A stretch of DNA of 64,000 bases from Nocardia xishanensis NBRC 101358 (GTDB lineage: Bacteria > Actinomycetota > Actinomycetes > Mycobacteriales > Mycobacteriaceae). A program made the translations under genes and the position numbers. Under the pieces are notes generated by a model. The model ran no database searches. It worked only from the letters and a program-made list of their open reading frames with translations, and had not been told where the DNA came from. Below are positions 25,452 to 31,722 of the stretch, one piece after another (within the stretch, counting starts at the first letter, position 1; each line of letters begins with the position of its first letter). The stretch spans positions 469,921 to 533,920 of the forward strand of contig NZ_BDCF01000001.1 of the NCBI RefSeq assembly GCF_001613365.1. The letters run 5' to 3'.

Positions 25452-28400
25452 CTAAGCGTCCAGCCGCCCGCTCAACTCGCGCAGCAGCGCGATGATCCGT
25501 GCCGCTCCGGTCCTGCGCCGCATCCCGGTGGCCGCGCGCAAGGCCGCGTCCATCCGCTCGGAGCCGACTCGCGACCGGTGAAAGTCCCAGTGCCGCCGCA
25601 CCATCATCGACGGATAGTCCTGCCGGGCAACGACCTTCGCGGACAGCGCGAGCAGCTCCATACCCGCCTCCGCATCCGGCTCGATCGCGAGCCGATGCGA
25701 GCCGACCGCGCACGCCACCGCGCCTATCTGCGGCAGGTCGTAGAACTGGGCAAGCCTGCCCGCAGCGCTCTCGGTGACTTCGGCGGCGAGTTCCGTCGCC
25801 TCCTCGGCGCGTCCGTACAGCACCTGCGCGCCGATCATCGCGCTCGCCAGCATGAGCCCGCCCGGCCCCGGCGTCAGATCATCGTCCGGCCAGCCCAACA
25901 GCTCGAGCGCCCTGCGGTAATACCGCAATCCGATGTCGGTATCGCCCTCGGCCAGTGCGAGTTCCGCGACACCACCCGACACGGTGGCCAGCCGATGGTT
26001 GCGCCGGACGTTCGGATCGTCGATCGGGGCGACATAAGCCGGGTCGTCGGAAGCGCCGAGCGCGAAGGCCAATTCCTCGCGTGCCCGCTCCACCTGGCCC
26101 ACGCCGATCAGCGCGACCGCGAGATAGCTGCGAATCTCCACGGCCTCGTCGTGGGCCCGCAGGGTGCGCAGCGCGGCGGCGGCCCTGCGGTAGTAGTCCA
26201 CCGAATCGGCGTAGCGGGCGGTCTGCCCGCCGAGCTGGCCTAGGTGCTGACAGACCATGGCGAGGCCCCATAGATCTTTGCCTTCCAGCAACCGCAGCGC
26301 GCCGAGCGCGTCGCGGGCCGAGCCGTGCACGTCGCCCGCGTTCTCCCTGATGTTCGCGCGGGCGATGAGCGCGGCCGCCCGCACGTCGGGGTCGGAGGAA
26401 CGCGCTCCGTCGGCGAGAATGCGCGCAAGGCCTTTTCCCGAGGCGTCCACGATCAGCAACCCGCCGAGGTGGCGCAACCCGGGGTTCATCCCGACGGCGG
26501 TGCGCAGCAACACCCGGGTGCGCGCCCGCACGGTGGCCAGCGGGCGCAGATCGGCGTTCAGGAAGACCAGGTGTATTCCGATCGTCAGCGCGGCCAGCAT
26601 CCGCAGATCCGCGATGACGCCGCGCGCGGGTTCCCGCTCGGGCGCGGAGCGCAGCACTCGCGGCGCCCACGACGTCAGCTCCATATGCGCGCCGCGCATC
26701 ATCCACAGCATCGCGAGGACAGGGAACACGCGATACACCGTCGCGGCGTCGTCGCGGTCCAGCGCGTAGCGCAGCACACCCGCCAGGTTGTCCTGTTCGG
26801 CGGCGACCGAGAGCACCGTCGTCAGCTGTTCGTCGGTGCGGTAGCGCAGGGCGGCGTCCACCGAGTATTCGGCCGCCCACCGCGACATCCGCCGCATGAC
26901 ATGCTCGACTTCACCGACGGTGGTCAGCTGTTCCTCACCGAATTCACGGACCGTCTCAAGCATTCGGTACCGCGTGCCGTCCTCGTCCTCGAGCACGGTG
27001 AGCAGCGACTGGCTCACCAAGCCGTCCACCGCGGCGGCCACATCGTCGACGTCCGGTCCGCCCGCCACCGCCTCGGCGGCGATCGAGGTGAAACCCGCTG
27101 GAAAGCGGCACATTCGGCGCAATGTCGCCTGCTGCGGCGGATCGAGCAGGTTCCAGCTCCACGCGATCACCGCGTGCAGTGTGCGGTGCCGTTCAGGTGA
27201 CGAGCGGTCGCCGCCGCGCAGCAGGGCGAATCGGTGCTCGAGCCTGGCCTCGATCTCCTCGACGCTCATGGTGCGGGCACGGGCGGCGGCGAGTTCGATG
27301 GCCAGTGGCAGTCCGTCCAGCATCGCGCACAGCCTGGCGACGGCGTCCGGGTCGAGGCGCACCGTCGGCCGCACCGCGCGGGCCCGCGCGCTGAACAGGT
27401 CGGTGGCGGGCGAGCCCGCGGCGTCGATGGCCAAGGGCGCCAAGGGATAGACGCTCTCGGCGGTGATGGCCAGCGGGGCGCGGCTGGTGGTCAGCACGGT
27501 GAGCTGGTCGCAGCTGCCGATCAGGTCGCCGACGACCTCGGCGACGGCATCGACGAGGTGTTCGCAGTTGTCCAAGATCAGCAGCATCGGACGGGCCGAC
27601 AGCGCGTCGCGCAGCCGCCTGCCCGTGTCGATCCGCCCCGGCCGCAGCAGACCCGGCTCGCGGACCACCTCGCCGATGCCGAGCGTCGTACTGATCGCCG
27701 ACTCGATATCGGCCCGCGCGTCGTCCACGGAGGTCGAGCGCACCGACGCGAGCTCCACGAGCACCACGGATTCCTGCCGCGCCACCCTGGCGCCGACTTC
27801 GTTGGCCACCCTGGTCTTTCCGGTTCCCCCCGGCCCGAGCACGGTGACCACCCGGGCGGCGCGCAGCAGCTCGGCGAGCTGGTCGAGGTCGGCGTCCCTG
27901 CCCAGCAGTGCGTTCGGCGCGGCGCGCAAGCCGATGGCCTCGCGCGGACTCTCGGAGCGAGACAACAACTGTGCGTGCAGCGGTGACGCCGTGCTCGCGT
28001 CCGGGATACCGACGGCCGCGGCATGCGCCGACCCCTCCGGGTCGGAAGAGGCCGCCGGTTCGGGTTTTTCGATGACATTGAGCGTCACGGTTCCCCGCCG
28101 GTCGGGCGGGACGCTTCCACCGTTGGTCGCCGCCGTCCGTTCGGGGGCGCCCACCGCCTCACCCCGCAGGATGGCGGTGTTCAACTCGACGAGCGCCCGT
28201 CCCGGGTCCGCGCCGAGCTGATCGGCGAGGCGGGTCCGGAACCCCGCGAAGGATTCCAGCGCCTCGTTGGCCCGGTCGGCGCGCGCGAGCAGCCGCATGA
28301 GGGCCAGTTGGGCGGGTTCGTCGAGTGGTTCGGCGGCCGCGCGACGCCGCGCCAGGTCGAGTGCGCCGGGGATGTCGCCGCCGGATTCCCGCGCGGCCAA

Positions 28401-28991
28401 CTCGAGCGCGTCGAGTTCGGCGGTCAGCGACGCCGCGACGCGCGCGAGTTCCTCCGCGATCTCACCGGGCGGCAGGTCGGCGGCGGGTTCGCCGCGCCAG
28501 AGCGCTCGCGCCTCGTGCACCGATCCCAGGCACGCGGCGACGTCCCCCGCCGCGAGCCCGCCGCGGGCTCGGGCCAGCAACGCGCCACCGTGCGTCAGGT
28601 CGACCTGGTCGGGCGCGAAGGTGAGCCGGTAACCCGCGGGACCGATCTCCAGCGCGCCGTCGGGCAGCGTCGAGCGCAGCCGCGACACCTGGGTGTGCAG
28701 CGCGTTCATCGGCGAGCGTGGCGGCTGGTCGGCCCATACGTCTTCGATCAAGGCCGATGCCGTGCGGCTGCGGCCAGGTCGCAGGGCGAGCGCGGTGAGC
28801 AGCAGCCGGGACCGGGCTCCGGGTACGGGTGTGAGCGCGCCGTCGCGGCGCAGTGCGACCTCGCCGAGCAGGGCCACCACGACCGATGCGCCCGCCTGCG
28901 GCGTAGCGGTGGGATTCGGGCCCTCGGGGCCGCGCCGATCTGGAAACATGCCGTGGTCATCGTATGCGAGGGAGCGGGCTGAGACTGACAT
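25452..28991 (-). CDS. AfsR/SARP-type regulator: winged helix, BTAD, NB-ARC ATPase and TPR domains
   Basis: A 1179-residue regulator of the signal-transduction ATPase type. An OmpR-like winged helix lies at about residues 38-115 (LLGEVALRRDG, LHTQVSRLRSTLPDG). The bacterial transcriptional activator domain is at about 125-275. After a Pro/Ser/Ala-rich linker, an NB-ARC module follows with Walker A GPGGTGKT near residue 385 and Walker B MLLILDNCEHL. The C-terminal 500 residues are helical repeats of TPR type. Such proteins activate secondary-metabolite or stress genes; the target here is not known. The start at 28991 is uncertain: a downstream Met gives MFPDRRG. Confidence 0.88.
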   Translation of the reverse strand: MSVSARSLAYDDHGMFPDRRGPEGPNPTATPQAGASVVVALLGEVALRRDGALTPVPGARSRLLLTALALRPGRSRTASALIEDVWADQPPRSPMNALHTQVSRLRSTLPDGALEIGPAGYRLTFAPDQVDLTHGGALLARARGGLAAGDVAACLGSVHEARALWRGEPAADLPPGEIAEELARVAASLTAELDALELAARESGGDIPGALDLARRRAAAEPLDEPAQLALMRLLARADRANEALESFAGFRTRLADQLGADPGRALVELNTAILRGEAVGAPERTAATNGGSVPPDRRGTVTLNVIEKPEPAASSDPEGSAHAAAVGIPDASTASPLHAQLLSRSESPREAIGLRAAPNALLGRDADLDQLAELLRAARVVTVLGPGGTGKTRVANEVGARVARQESVVLVELASVRSTSVDDARADIESAISTTLGIGEVVREPGLLRPGRIDTGRRLRDALSARPMLLILDNCEHLVDAVAEVVGDLIGSCDQLTVLTTSRAPLAITAESVYPLAPLAIDAAGSPATDLFSARARAVRPTVRLDPDAVARLCAMLDGLPLAIELAAARARTMSVEEIEARLEHRFALLRGGDRSSPERHRTLHAVIAWSWNLLDPPQQATLRRMCRFPAGFTSIAAEAVAGGPDVDDVAAAVDGLVSQSLLTVLEDEDGTRYRMLETVREFGEEQLTTVGEVEHVMRRMSRWAAEYSVDAALRYRTDEQLTTVLSVAAEQDNLAGVLRYALDRDDAATVYRVFPVLAMLWMMRGAHMELTSWAPRVLRSAPEREPARGVIADLRMLAALTIGIHLVFLNADLRPLATVRARTRVLLRTAVGMNPGLRHLGGLLIVDASGKGLARILADGARSSDPDVRAAALIARANIRENAGDVHGSARDALGALRLLEGKDLWGLAMVCQHLGQLGGQTARYADSVDYYRRAAAALRTLRAHDEAVEIRSYLAVALIGVGQVERAREELAFALGASDDPAYVAPIDDPNVRRNHRLATVSGGVAELALAEGDTDIGLRYYRRALELLGWPDDDLTPGPGGLMLASAMIGAQVLYGRAEEATELAAEVTESAAGRLAQFYDLPQIGAVACAVGSHRLAIEPDAEAGMELLALSAKVVARQDYPSMMVRRHWDFHRSRVGSERMDAALRAATGMRRRTGAARIIALLRELSGRLDA

Positions 28992-30428: not shown

Positions 30429-30821
30429 TCAGTCGTTGTCGGGAACCAGCACGCCGAGAACCCAGTTCACCAGCGAGATGATGATGCCGCCGAGCACGGC
30501 GGCCCAGAATCCGTCGACCACCAAACCGTATTCGGGAGCGTCGACGAGTTCGGTGATCTCCGCGGTGAGCCAGAGCATCAGCGCGTTGATCAACAGCAGG
30601 AACAAGCCGAGGGTCAGCACGATCAGCGGCAGCGACAGCAGTTTCACCAACGGCTTCACCAGCGCGTTGACCACGGTGAACACCACCGCGATGGCGAGGG
30701 CGACGAGAATCTCGCCGCCGGTGCCGTTCTCTTTCGGGCTCAGGATGTCGATACCGCCCACCCATTCGGCGGCCAACCATATGGCGAACGCGTTGATGAT
30801 CAACCGAAGCACGAGCTGCAT
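30429..30821 (-). CDS. Phage holin superfamily IV-like membrane protein
   Basis: A 130-residue protein with four hydrophobic segments, at about residues 6-20, 37-53, 58-82 and 100-122. The pattern NALVKPLVKLLSLPLIVLTLGLFLLLINALMLWL is characteristic of the four-TM phage holin family found throughout actinobacterial chromosomes. Despite the name, these are housekeeping-like genes of unknown role, and nothing nearby suggests a prophage. ATG at 30821 is favoured over the GTG two codons upstream. Confidence 0.82.
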   Translation of the reverse strand: MQLVLRLIINAFAIWLAAEWVGGIDILSPKENGTGGEILVALAIAVVFTVVNALVKPLVKLLSLPLIVLTLGLFLLLINALMLWLTAEITELVDAPEYGLVVDGFWAAVLGGIIISLVNWVLGVLVPDND

Positions 30822-30880
30822 GCGCACATGCTAAATGCGGTGAGCCGCCGCCGCTGGCGGGAAATGGTTTTCCGCGTTCG

Positions 30881-31456
30881 TCAGGCCGCACGGTCGAGCA
30901 GCGCGTGCACCTTCGGCCGCAGGTCGTGGATCGGCCCTGAGCCGCCGAACAGGCCAACGGTGGTCTGATTCGGCGCGCGCAGGATACCGAGCAGCACGTG
31001 CCCTGATTCGATGCTTTTGTCCTTGCGCGCGAGGGCTTCCCGCAGTGAGAGCTCGAGCACTTTCTTCGCGTCCTTGGTGAACGGGATGTGTCCGCCGTAC
31101 CACTGCCGCCCAAGGAGTCCGCGACGCGGCTCGGGGAGCGGACGATCCAGCACGTCCTCACCGAAGCCCGCTTCCAGCGATTCGCGCACCGCGTCCAGGT
31201 CGATGCCGATCGAGCGCAATGCTTCGGCGTCCTCGGCGCCGAGTGGCTCGGCGTGCCCCTCGGCGTTCAAGGCGCTCAGCACACCCTCGCGGGTGAGCCC
31301 CGCGTCCGCGAGCAGCGCCTTCAGCTCGGGCTCGGCTTGCGTGAGCAGGCCGAGCAGCACGTGCTCGACCTCGATGCTCGGCGACCGCAGCTCACGGGCG
31401 TCTTCCTGCGCGATCACGACGGCCGTCCGCGCCGACTTGCTGAACCGTTCGAACAT
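30881..31456 (-). CDS. Clp N-terminal (double Clp repeat) protein without ATPase domain
   Basis: A 191-residue protein made of the ClpA/C N-domain repeat twice: MFERFSKSARTAVVIAQEDARELRSPSIEVEHVLLGLL (1-40), and again FTKDAKKVLELSLREALARKDKSIESGHVLLGILR (about 128-162). No AAA+ module follows, so it is not a Clp unfoldase. It may be a stand-alone adaptor or substrate-binding domain, which is inference. Its start overlaps the stop of the upstream HTH gene (TGATG), so both are translated from one message behind two inverted repeats. Confidence 0.88.
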   Translation of the reverse strand: MFERFSKSARTAVVIAQEDARELRSPSIEVEHVLLGLLTQAEPELKALLADAGLTREGVLSALNAEGHAEPLGAEDAEALRSIGIDLDAVRESLEAGFGEDVLDRPLPEPRRGLLGRQWYGGHIPFTKDAKKVLELSLREALARKDKSIESGHVLLGILRAPNQTTVGLFGGSGPIHDLRPKVHALLDRAA

Positions 31457-31674
31457 CAGCTTCTGCCTTTCCGGTTGTATTTCTGATGGACCGCCTGCTT
31501 GCTGACCTCGAGCGCGTCGGCGATCGCCTGCCATGACCAGCCCTGCGCGCGGGCGTTGGTCACCTGGATCGCCTCCAGCCGTTCGAGCAGCCGACGCAGT
31601 GCGAGCACGGCGCGCAGTCCGACCTTGGGGTCGGGACTGCCCGCGGCGGCCGCCAGAGTGGTTGCCTCAGTCAT
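31456..31674 (-). CDS. Small helix-turn-helix protein coupled to the Clp-N gene
   Basis: A 72-residue protein. Residues about 23-45 form a helix, and residues about 47-68 form an HTH: QGWSWQAIADALEVSKQAVHQKYN. The C-terminus is basic (RKGRS). It starts at ATG 31674; a longer in-frame form from 31698 would run across the candidate operator. The stop and the next start share one base. HTH/Clp-N pairs of this kind are frequent in actinobacteria, and the HTH probably controls its own operon through the repeats at 31678-31722. Confidence 0.85.
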   Translation of the reverse strand: MTEATTLAAAAGSPDPKVGLRAVLALRRLLERLEAIQVTNARAQGWSWQAIADALEVSKQAVHQKYNRKGRS

Positions 31675-31677
31675 GAC

Positions 31678-31722
31678 GTCAATTTTGATTGACGCCAACG
31701 CTGTGTGTCAACAAAAATTGAC
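31678..31722. promoter_or_regulatory. Twin inverted repeats, candidate operators of the HTH/Clp-N operon
   Basis: GTCAATTTTGATTGAC (31678-31693) and GTCAACAAAAATTGAC (31707-31722) share the arms GTCAA-N6-TTGAC in 16-bp sites. Their centres are 29 bp apart, and the first lies 4 bp upstream of the HTH start codon. Their AT-richness stands out from the surrounding DNA. Two copies right before a gene for a small DNA-binding protein suggest autoregulation. Confidence 0.75.

Follow-up and report, generated by a model that had tools for sequence, protein, structure and literature searches.

What is a Clp-N protein that has no ATPase doing behind a small helix-turn-helix (HTH) gene with two operators in front of it? 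Such a pair lies on the minus strand of a 64,000-nucleotide stretch of Nocardia xishanensis NBRC 101358 (contig NZ_BDCF01000001.1, positions 469,921 to 533,920), which we call the window and whose own numbering is used throughout. The HTH gene runs from its ATG at 31674 down to 31456 and encodes a 72-residue protein, and the Clp-N gene runs from its ATG at 31456 down to 30881 and encodes a 191-residue protein, with the stop codon of the first and the start codon of the second overlapping by one base (TGATG). The N-terminal domain of the unfoldase ClpC1 is the target of cyclomarin, rufomycin, ecumicin and lassomycin. We propose that the pair is probably a two-protein counterpart of the fused protein ClpC2, in which the HTH protein likely represses its own operon at the twin operators and the Clp-N protein is predicted to act as a sensor and sponge for ligands of the ClpC1 docking domain.

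Two exact copies of GTCAA-N6-TTGAC precede the pair. The inner operator, GTCAATTTTGATTGAC, occupies positions 31678-31693 and ends 3 nt before the HTH start codon, and the outer one, GTCAACAAAAATTGAC, occupies 31707-31722, so that their starts are 29 bp apart. An earlier note on this DNA, made from the sequence alone, had described these two sites, the one-base overlap of the genes and the double Clp-N protein without an ATPase, and each of these features was recovered here. When one mismatch was allowed, shuffled windows gave a mean of 0.79 matches and two or more in 15 of 100 cases, so the bare number of sites is weak evidence. The two operators are the sole exact copies in the 7.69-Mb genome, in which a reversed control pattern has three exact matches; single sites thus do not exceed background, and it is their pairing that matters. 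An unbiased scan of 60 genomes for two adjacent sites returned 55 places in 50 genomes and none for the reversed control, and 52 of the 55 coincide by their coordinates with an HTH/Clp-N pair; the remaining three (L189, L190 and L191) precede other genes, described below.

The operators overlap a consensus-type promoter with predicted -35 and -10 elements. The predicted -35 hexamer, TTGACA (31706..31711, minus strand), takes in the gene-proximal TTGAC half of the outer operator and, by a consensus reading, falls at the same place in twin-operator loci; the predicted -10 hexamer, CAAAAT (31682..31687, minus strand), lies inside the inner operator, where relatives mostly have TAnnTT one base further on. 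Of 127 distinct inner sites, 99% have A as the eighth base after the first; among 130 distinct outer sites the share is 14%. This A sits in TAnnTT, which reads as a -10 element, and the outer-site TTGAC, 17-19 bp upstream, reads as a -35 element. The bases flanking the ten required ones are Y before and R after in at least 96%.

The HTH protein is present in 257 of 401 family genomes. We assembled 70 family loci (30 given, with the window as L009 among them, and 40 picked for diversity) and a set of named loci (the best 80 of 560) from Nocardia, Rhodococcus, Mycolicibacterium, Streptomyces, Amycolatopsis, Pseudonocardia, Actinoplanes, Arthrobacter and other genera; six loci are common to both sets, which gives 144 distinct loci with the window included. 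These loci are related by descent, and the counts on them are not independent events. A search upstream of these orthologues, which the earlier note had proposed as a check, was run for GTCAA-Nx-TTGAC with x from 3 to 10 allowed. A site was found at 143 of the 144 loci (all except L070) and two sites at 133, and the spacing was six in 276 of 276 sites. The Clp-N gene adjoins the HTH gene on the same strand and in a separate frame in all 144. Absence of the motif before orthologues, which the note had named as a refuting result, was thus not seen. The observation made in the note is right, and stronger than its author could know. Across the same-genus loci L010-L038, identity to the window is 56-87% for the Clp-N protein versus 89-100% for the HTH protein. 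Two loci may hold decaying copies: the HTH frame of L057 seems to be broken within the recognition helix, and the Clp-N partner of L030 seems to be shortened. Twin N6 operators were also seen 3 nt before an alpha/beta-hydrolase gene in one same-genus genome (L190:1945-2782), possibly an extra target of the repressor, and 11 nt before a 350-residue open reading frame (ORF) on the minus strand (L189:937-2044) that has a weak match, below the Pfam cut-off, to glycoside hydrolase family 113.

The HTH protein (31456..31674, minus strand), the predicted autorepressor, has the recognition helix SKQAVHQK, and its AlphaFold model, with a predicted local distance difference test score (pLDDT) of 92, places the helix-turn-helix in helices 48-55 and 59-71. 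The Clp-N protein (30881..31456, minus strand), the predicted sensor and decoy, contains both repeats (PF02861, 54 bits in two stretches), in agreement with its AlphaFold model. It gave Clp-N matches only and lacks the AAA+ ATPase modules of a ClpC/Hsp100 unfoldase; 191 residues are too few to hold them. It differs from the ClpC1 N-terminal domain in standing apart from AAA+ modules and in carrying an insertion between the two repeats. Plant ClpT1 and ClpT2 are likewise Clp-N-only proteins, accessory to the chloroplast Clp system; we know of no regulator gene that accompanies them. An extra half-repeat (residues 76-99, DAEALRSIGIDLDAVRESLEAGFG; 31160..31231, minus strand), which we guess to be the contact with the HTH protein, is among the most conserved parts, with G84, I85 and D86 each kept in 142 of 144 loci. 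The pocket segment GHIPFTKDAKKVLE (31052..31093, minus strand) was aligned with ClpC2 and includes F126 and E135, which match F172 and E181 of the M. tuberculosis protein, two residues that contact cyclomarin (PMC10030653). Across the 144 loci F2 is kept in 141, F126 in 132 and E135 in 114, and the window has all three.

ClpC2 itself (Rv2667 and its M. smegmatis homologue) is described by Taylor et al. (2023, PMC10030653), our source for this protein unless stated otherwise, as a fused autorepressor and cyclomarin sponge: it shuts off its own promoter and, once it has bound cyclomarin A, releases the DNA. Its operator, CGTCAAC-n5-GTTGACG, often occurs twice, over the putative -35 and -10 elements of a promoter thought to be leaderless, and cyclomarin A raises its mRNA 263-fold, heat (45 °C) about twofold. 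The earlier note's remark that, to its author's knowledge, no module of this kind had been described experimentally does not stand, since this fused counterpart with autorepression, often-twin operators of the same half-site and a sponge function had been reported.

The N. xishanensis genome encodes, besides the pair, three long Clp-N proteins (open frames of 849, 852 and 861 residues) and a separate 246-residue fused ClpC2. In hhalign comparisons the window HTH protein matched residues 34-81 of this ClpC2 (E 3.6e-8, 48 columns), and the Clp-N protein matched its second half (E 1.7e-24). The two operators of the own-genome ClpC2 span 45 bp, the same span as in the window, but at N7. A strong match to the ClpC2 N-terminal part is present in 54 of 60 genomes tested, and the operators of fused ClpC2 have N7 in 59 of 59 sites (30 of 54 loci scanned; two sites at 29 loci). 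Two paralogous systems per genome thus share a half-site, with spacing that differs by one base pair. The likeness extends to the related N-terminal part, in which the homology is partial, to the double Clp-N part without ATPase, and to GTCAA/TTGAC operators that often come as twins and adjoin a probably leaderless start codon. In contrast, ClpC2 is a single polypeptide with N7 operators, whereas the window system consists of two polypeptides with N6 operators, the Clp-N part lying outside the HTH frame in every one of the 144 loci; ClpC2 also lacks the extra SIGIDLDAVR half-repeat, which is gapped in the alignment. The pair is best described as a two-protein module that probably works like ClpC2 but departs from it in two defining features, the fusion and the operator spacing. 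PDB entry 8b9o was considered as ClpC3 and as the orthologue of the partner, and was rejected, its structure being that of the M. smegmatis ClpC2 C-terminal domain. A fused ClpC2-like gene at L289 has twin N8 sites beginning GTCAAG.

The gene order, the homology, the conservation of the operators, the overlap of the sites with consensus promoter elements and the pocket residues are all observed features, and by analogy with ClpC2 a role in ligand sensing and as a ligand decoy would be the likeliest one. We infer the steps of repression, contact between the two proteins, ligand binding and release as follows. One HTH dimer per GTCAA-N6-TTGAC site would cover the predicted -35 and -10 elements and keep RNA polymerase out. 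The Clp-N protein, translated from the same, probably leaderless, transcript, would dock on the HTH protein, perhaps through the conserved extra half-repeat. When a ClpC ligand, whether a cyclic peptide antibiotic, an unfolded protein or some other molecule, occupied its ClpC1-like pocket, the complex would come off the DNA; the operon would be induced and newly made Clp-N protein would compete with ClpC1 for the ligand.

Several points weigh against this reading. The searchable literature, outside which most subscription papers fall, yielded no binding, expression or ligand experiment on the pair. According to another report (PMC12913811), ilamycin and ecumicin bind ClpC2 without inducing it in M. 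tuberculosis, so not every ClpC ligand would do. The alignment of the HTH protein with ClpC2 covers 48 columns only and leaves its first 23 residues unaligned; plain BLAST aligned 33 residues at 39%, the profile match to the solved N-domain of ClpC2 (8ada) is weak (E 0.3), and a Foldseek search with the HTH model returned no match at E < 1. The pocket residues are common to ClpC N-domains generally and are no proof of peptide binding, and the H of GHIPF is kept in just 97 of 144 loci. The twin form is not present in ten of the 60 genomes scanned, and in a wider set GTCAA sites are absent from 14 of 45 split HTH/Clp-N loci, so some pairs do without this operator.

Other functions can be read into the same genes. 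The earlier note suggested that the module responds to protein stress; on that account the HTH protein would repress, and the Clp-N protein, acting as a holdase or as a regulator of adaptors, would compete for ClpC1 substrates or adaptors during heat or misfolding, with no small molecule involved. Such a trigger is possible, given that the Clp-N domain features are kept, that ClpC2 mRNA does respond to 45 °C and that a holdase role was suggested for ClpC2 from casein assays, but it is weakened by analogy, the heat effect on ClpC2 being about a hundred times smaller than that of cyclomarin (PMC10030653), and we regard this account as unlikely. A decoy might instead guard the ClpC1 N-domain against attack by proteins of phages or rivals, and not against antibiotics. 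Taylor et al. list phage proteins among the possible interactors of ClpC1, and the far greater divergence of the Clp-N protein than of the HTH protein is what would be expected of a surface under changing attack; however, neither protein matches the PADLOC defence models, and a Pfam scan of seven neighbouring ORFs revealed no defence family. We give this idea a small probability.

The HTH protein is also related to RelI (PDB 9sdc, E 4e-4), the antitoxin of the RelS-RelI system as described in a 2026 paper (PMC13284704), and the genes overlap and are apparently autoregulated, as they would be if a RelI-like antitoxin were paired with a Clp-N toxin that jams ClpC1. We consider this very improbable. 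Whereas the partner of RelI is an RNase toxin (PMC13284704), the neighbour here is a Clp-N protein and not a RelS-like toxin in all 144 distinct loci; the RelI-like relatives examined have Tyr where the window has His, and none of the three has a GTCAA site; and a ClpC2 variant with expression raised twofold caused no growth defect in the work of Taylor et al. (PMC10030653). Finally, the operators could be read by another regulator, such as ClpC2 acting in trans, with some other role for the HTH protein. The half-site is indeed identical to that of the ClpC2 operator, but the 276 N6 and 59 N7 sites always differ by 1 bp, which alters both the distance and the rotation between half-sites; three genomes (G031, G024 and G263) keep the N6 twin without a ClpC2 N-terminal match, and such sites also occur at some HTH relatives without Clp-N. 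We give this explanation little credence.

Which part reads the DNA in the fused protein? Residues 4-72 of ClpC2 were solved as a dimer, and dimer-deficient and Clp-N-only variants support the need for a dimer (PMC10030653). The authors assign DNA binding to the Clp-N half, where they propose R185 and R189 as the contact because an R185A/R189A mutant binds DNA less well (PMC10030653), and this mutant stands against our reading; the term "helix-turn-helix" is absent from the text of that paper. Of 144 Clp-N partners, 125 keep the equivalent of R185 but only 10 that of R189. The RelS-RelI paper notes the likeness of RelI to an HTH region of ClpC2 (PMC13284704). We examined a set of HTH relatives (30 loci plus 60 further ones among the matches listed). 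Those with no Clp-N found beside them have GTCAA palindromes at N6 in 6 of 7 with His at a key recognition-helix position and at N7 in 5 of 9 with Gln, counts that cover readable key residues only (25 of 107 rows were unread). Since some relatives without Clp-N carry the same half-sites, the HTH is favoured as the reader in both forms, and it probably reads the DNA of the ClpC2 operators too, with the published arginine mutant as the point against.

Among 107 family loci, the His type has N6 in 38, no site in 19 and N7 in none; the Gln type has N7 in 25, N8 in one, no site in six and N6 in none. No site was scored for the 17 loci with Arg, Phe, Tyr, Ile or Trp, but one of them, L191, departs from the His/Gln rule: its 111-residue HTH protein combines Trp at the key place with twin N6 sites. 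This stand-alone gene (L191:1958-2339) has the twin operator 3 nt before its ATG and no Clp-N gene beside it, and an Mrr-type restriction endonuclease gene lies nearby. Across 287 loci (six duplicates) N7 never occurs with a His type, nor N6 with a Gln type, and the 130 kb upstream of them contain no match to the reversed control. A tree of 229 distinct cores shows two changes of spacing and three of the key residue, with at most two independent pairs of spacing and residue changes, one of them on well-supported branches; with only two spacing changes the code is a hypothesis. Other alignment columns also separate the N6 and N7 groups nearly as well. We put forward only tentatively, and with slightly more doubt than confidence, the wider proposal that an actinobacterial HTH repressor family reads GTCAA palindromes, that one recognition-helix residue sets the spacing (His 6 bp, Gln 7 bp), that the split and fused ClpC-decoy circuits may thereby be insulated in each cell, and that the HTH, not Clp-N, reads the DNA in ClpC2 too. 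Short HTH genes at L295, L297 and L299 have Gln at the key position and single GTCAAG-N5-CTTGAC sites.

Downstream of the pair, the next genes encode a Phage_holin_4_2 family membrane protein (30429-30827, minus strand) and then a PALP-family protein, and a large regulator with BTAD and AAA domains lies at 25452-28991 on the minus strand.

Antibiotics target ClpC1, whose best-described natural decoy is ClpC2, a protein studied in mycobacteria. In soil and antibiotic-producing actinobacteria the pair seems to form a second decoy circuit with wiring of its own. With sensor and DNA reader split into two proteins, it offers a clean test of how a ligand signal at Clp-N would reach the DNA, and it calls into question the published location of the DNA site of ClpC2. 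The one-base difference in spacing provides a ready case of how paralogous repressors may avoid cross-talk.
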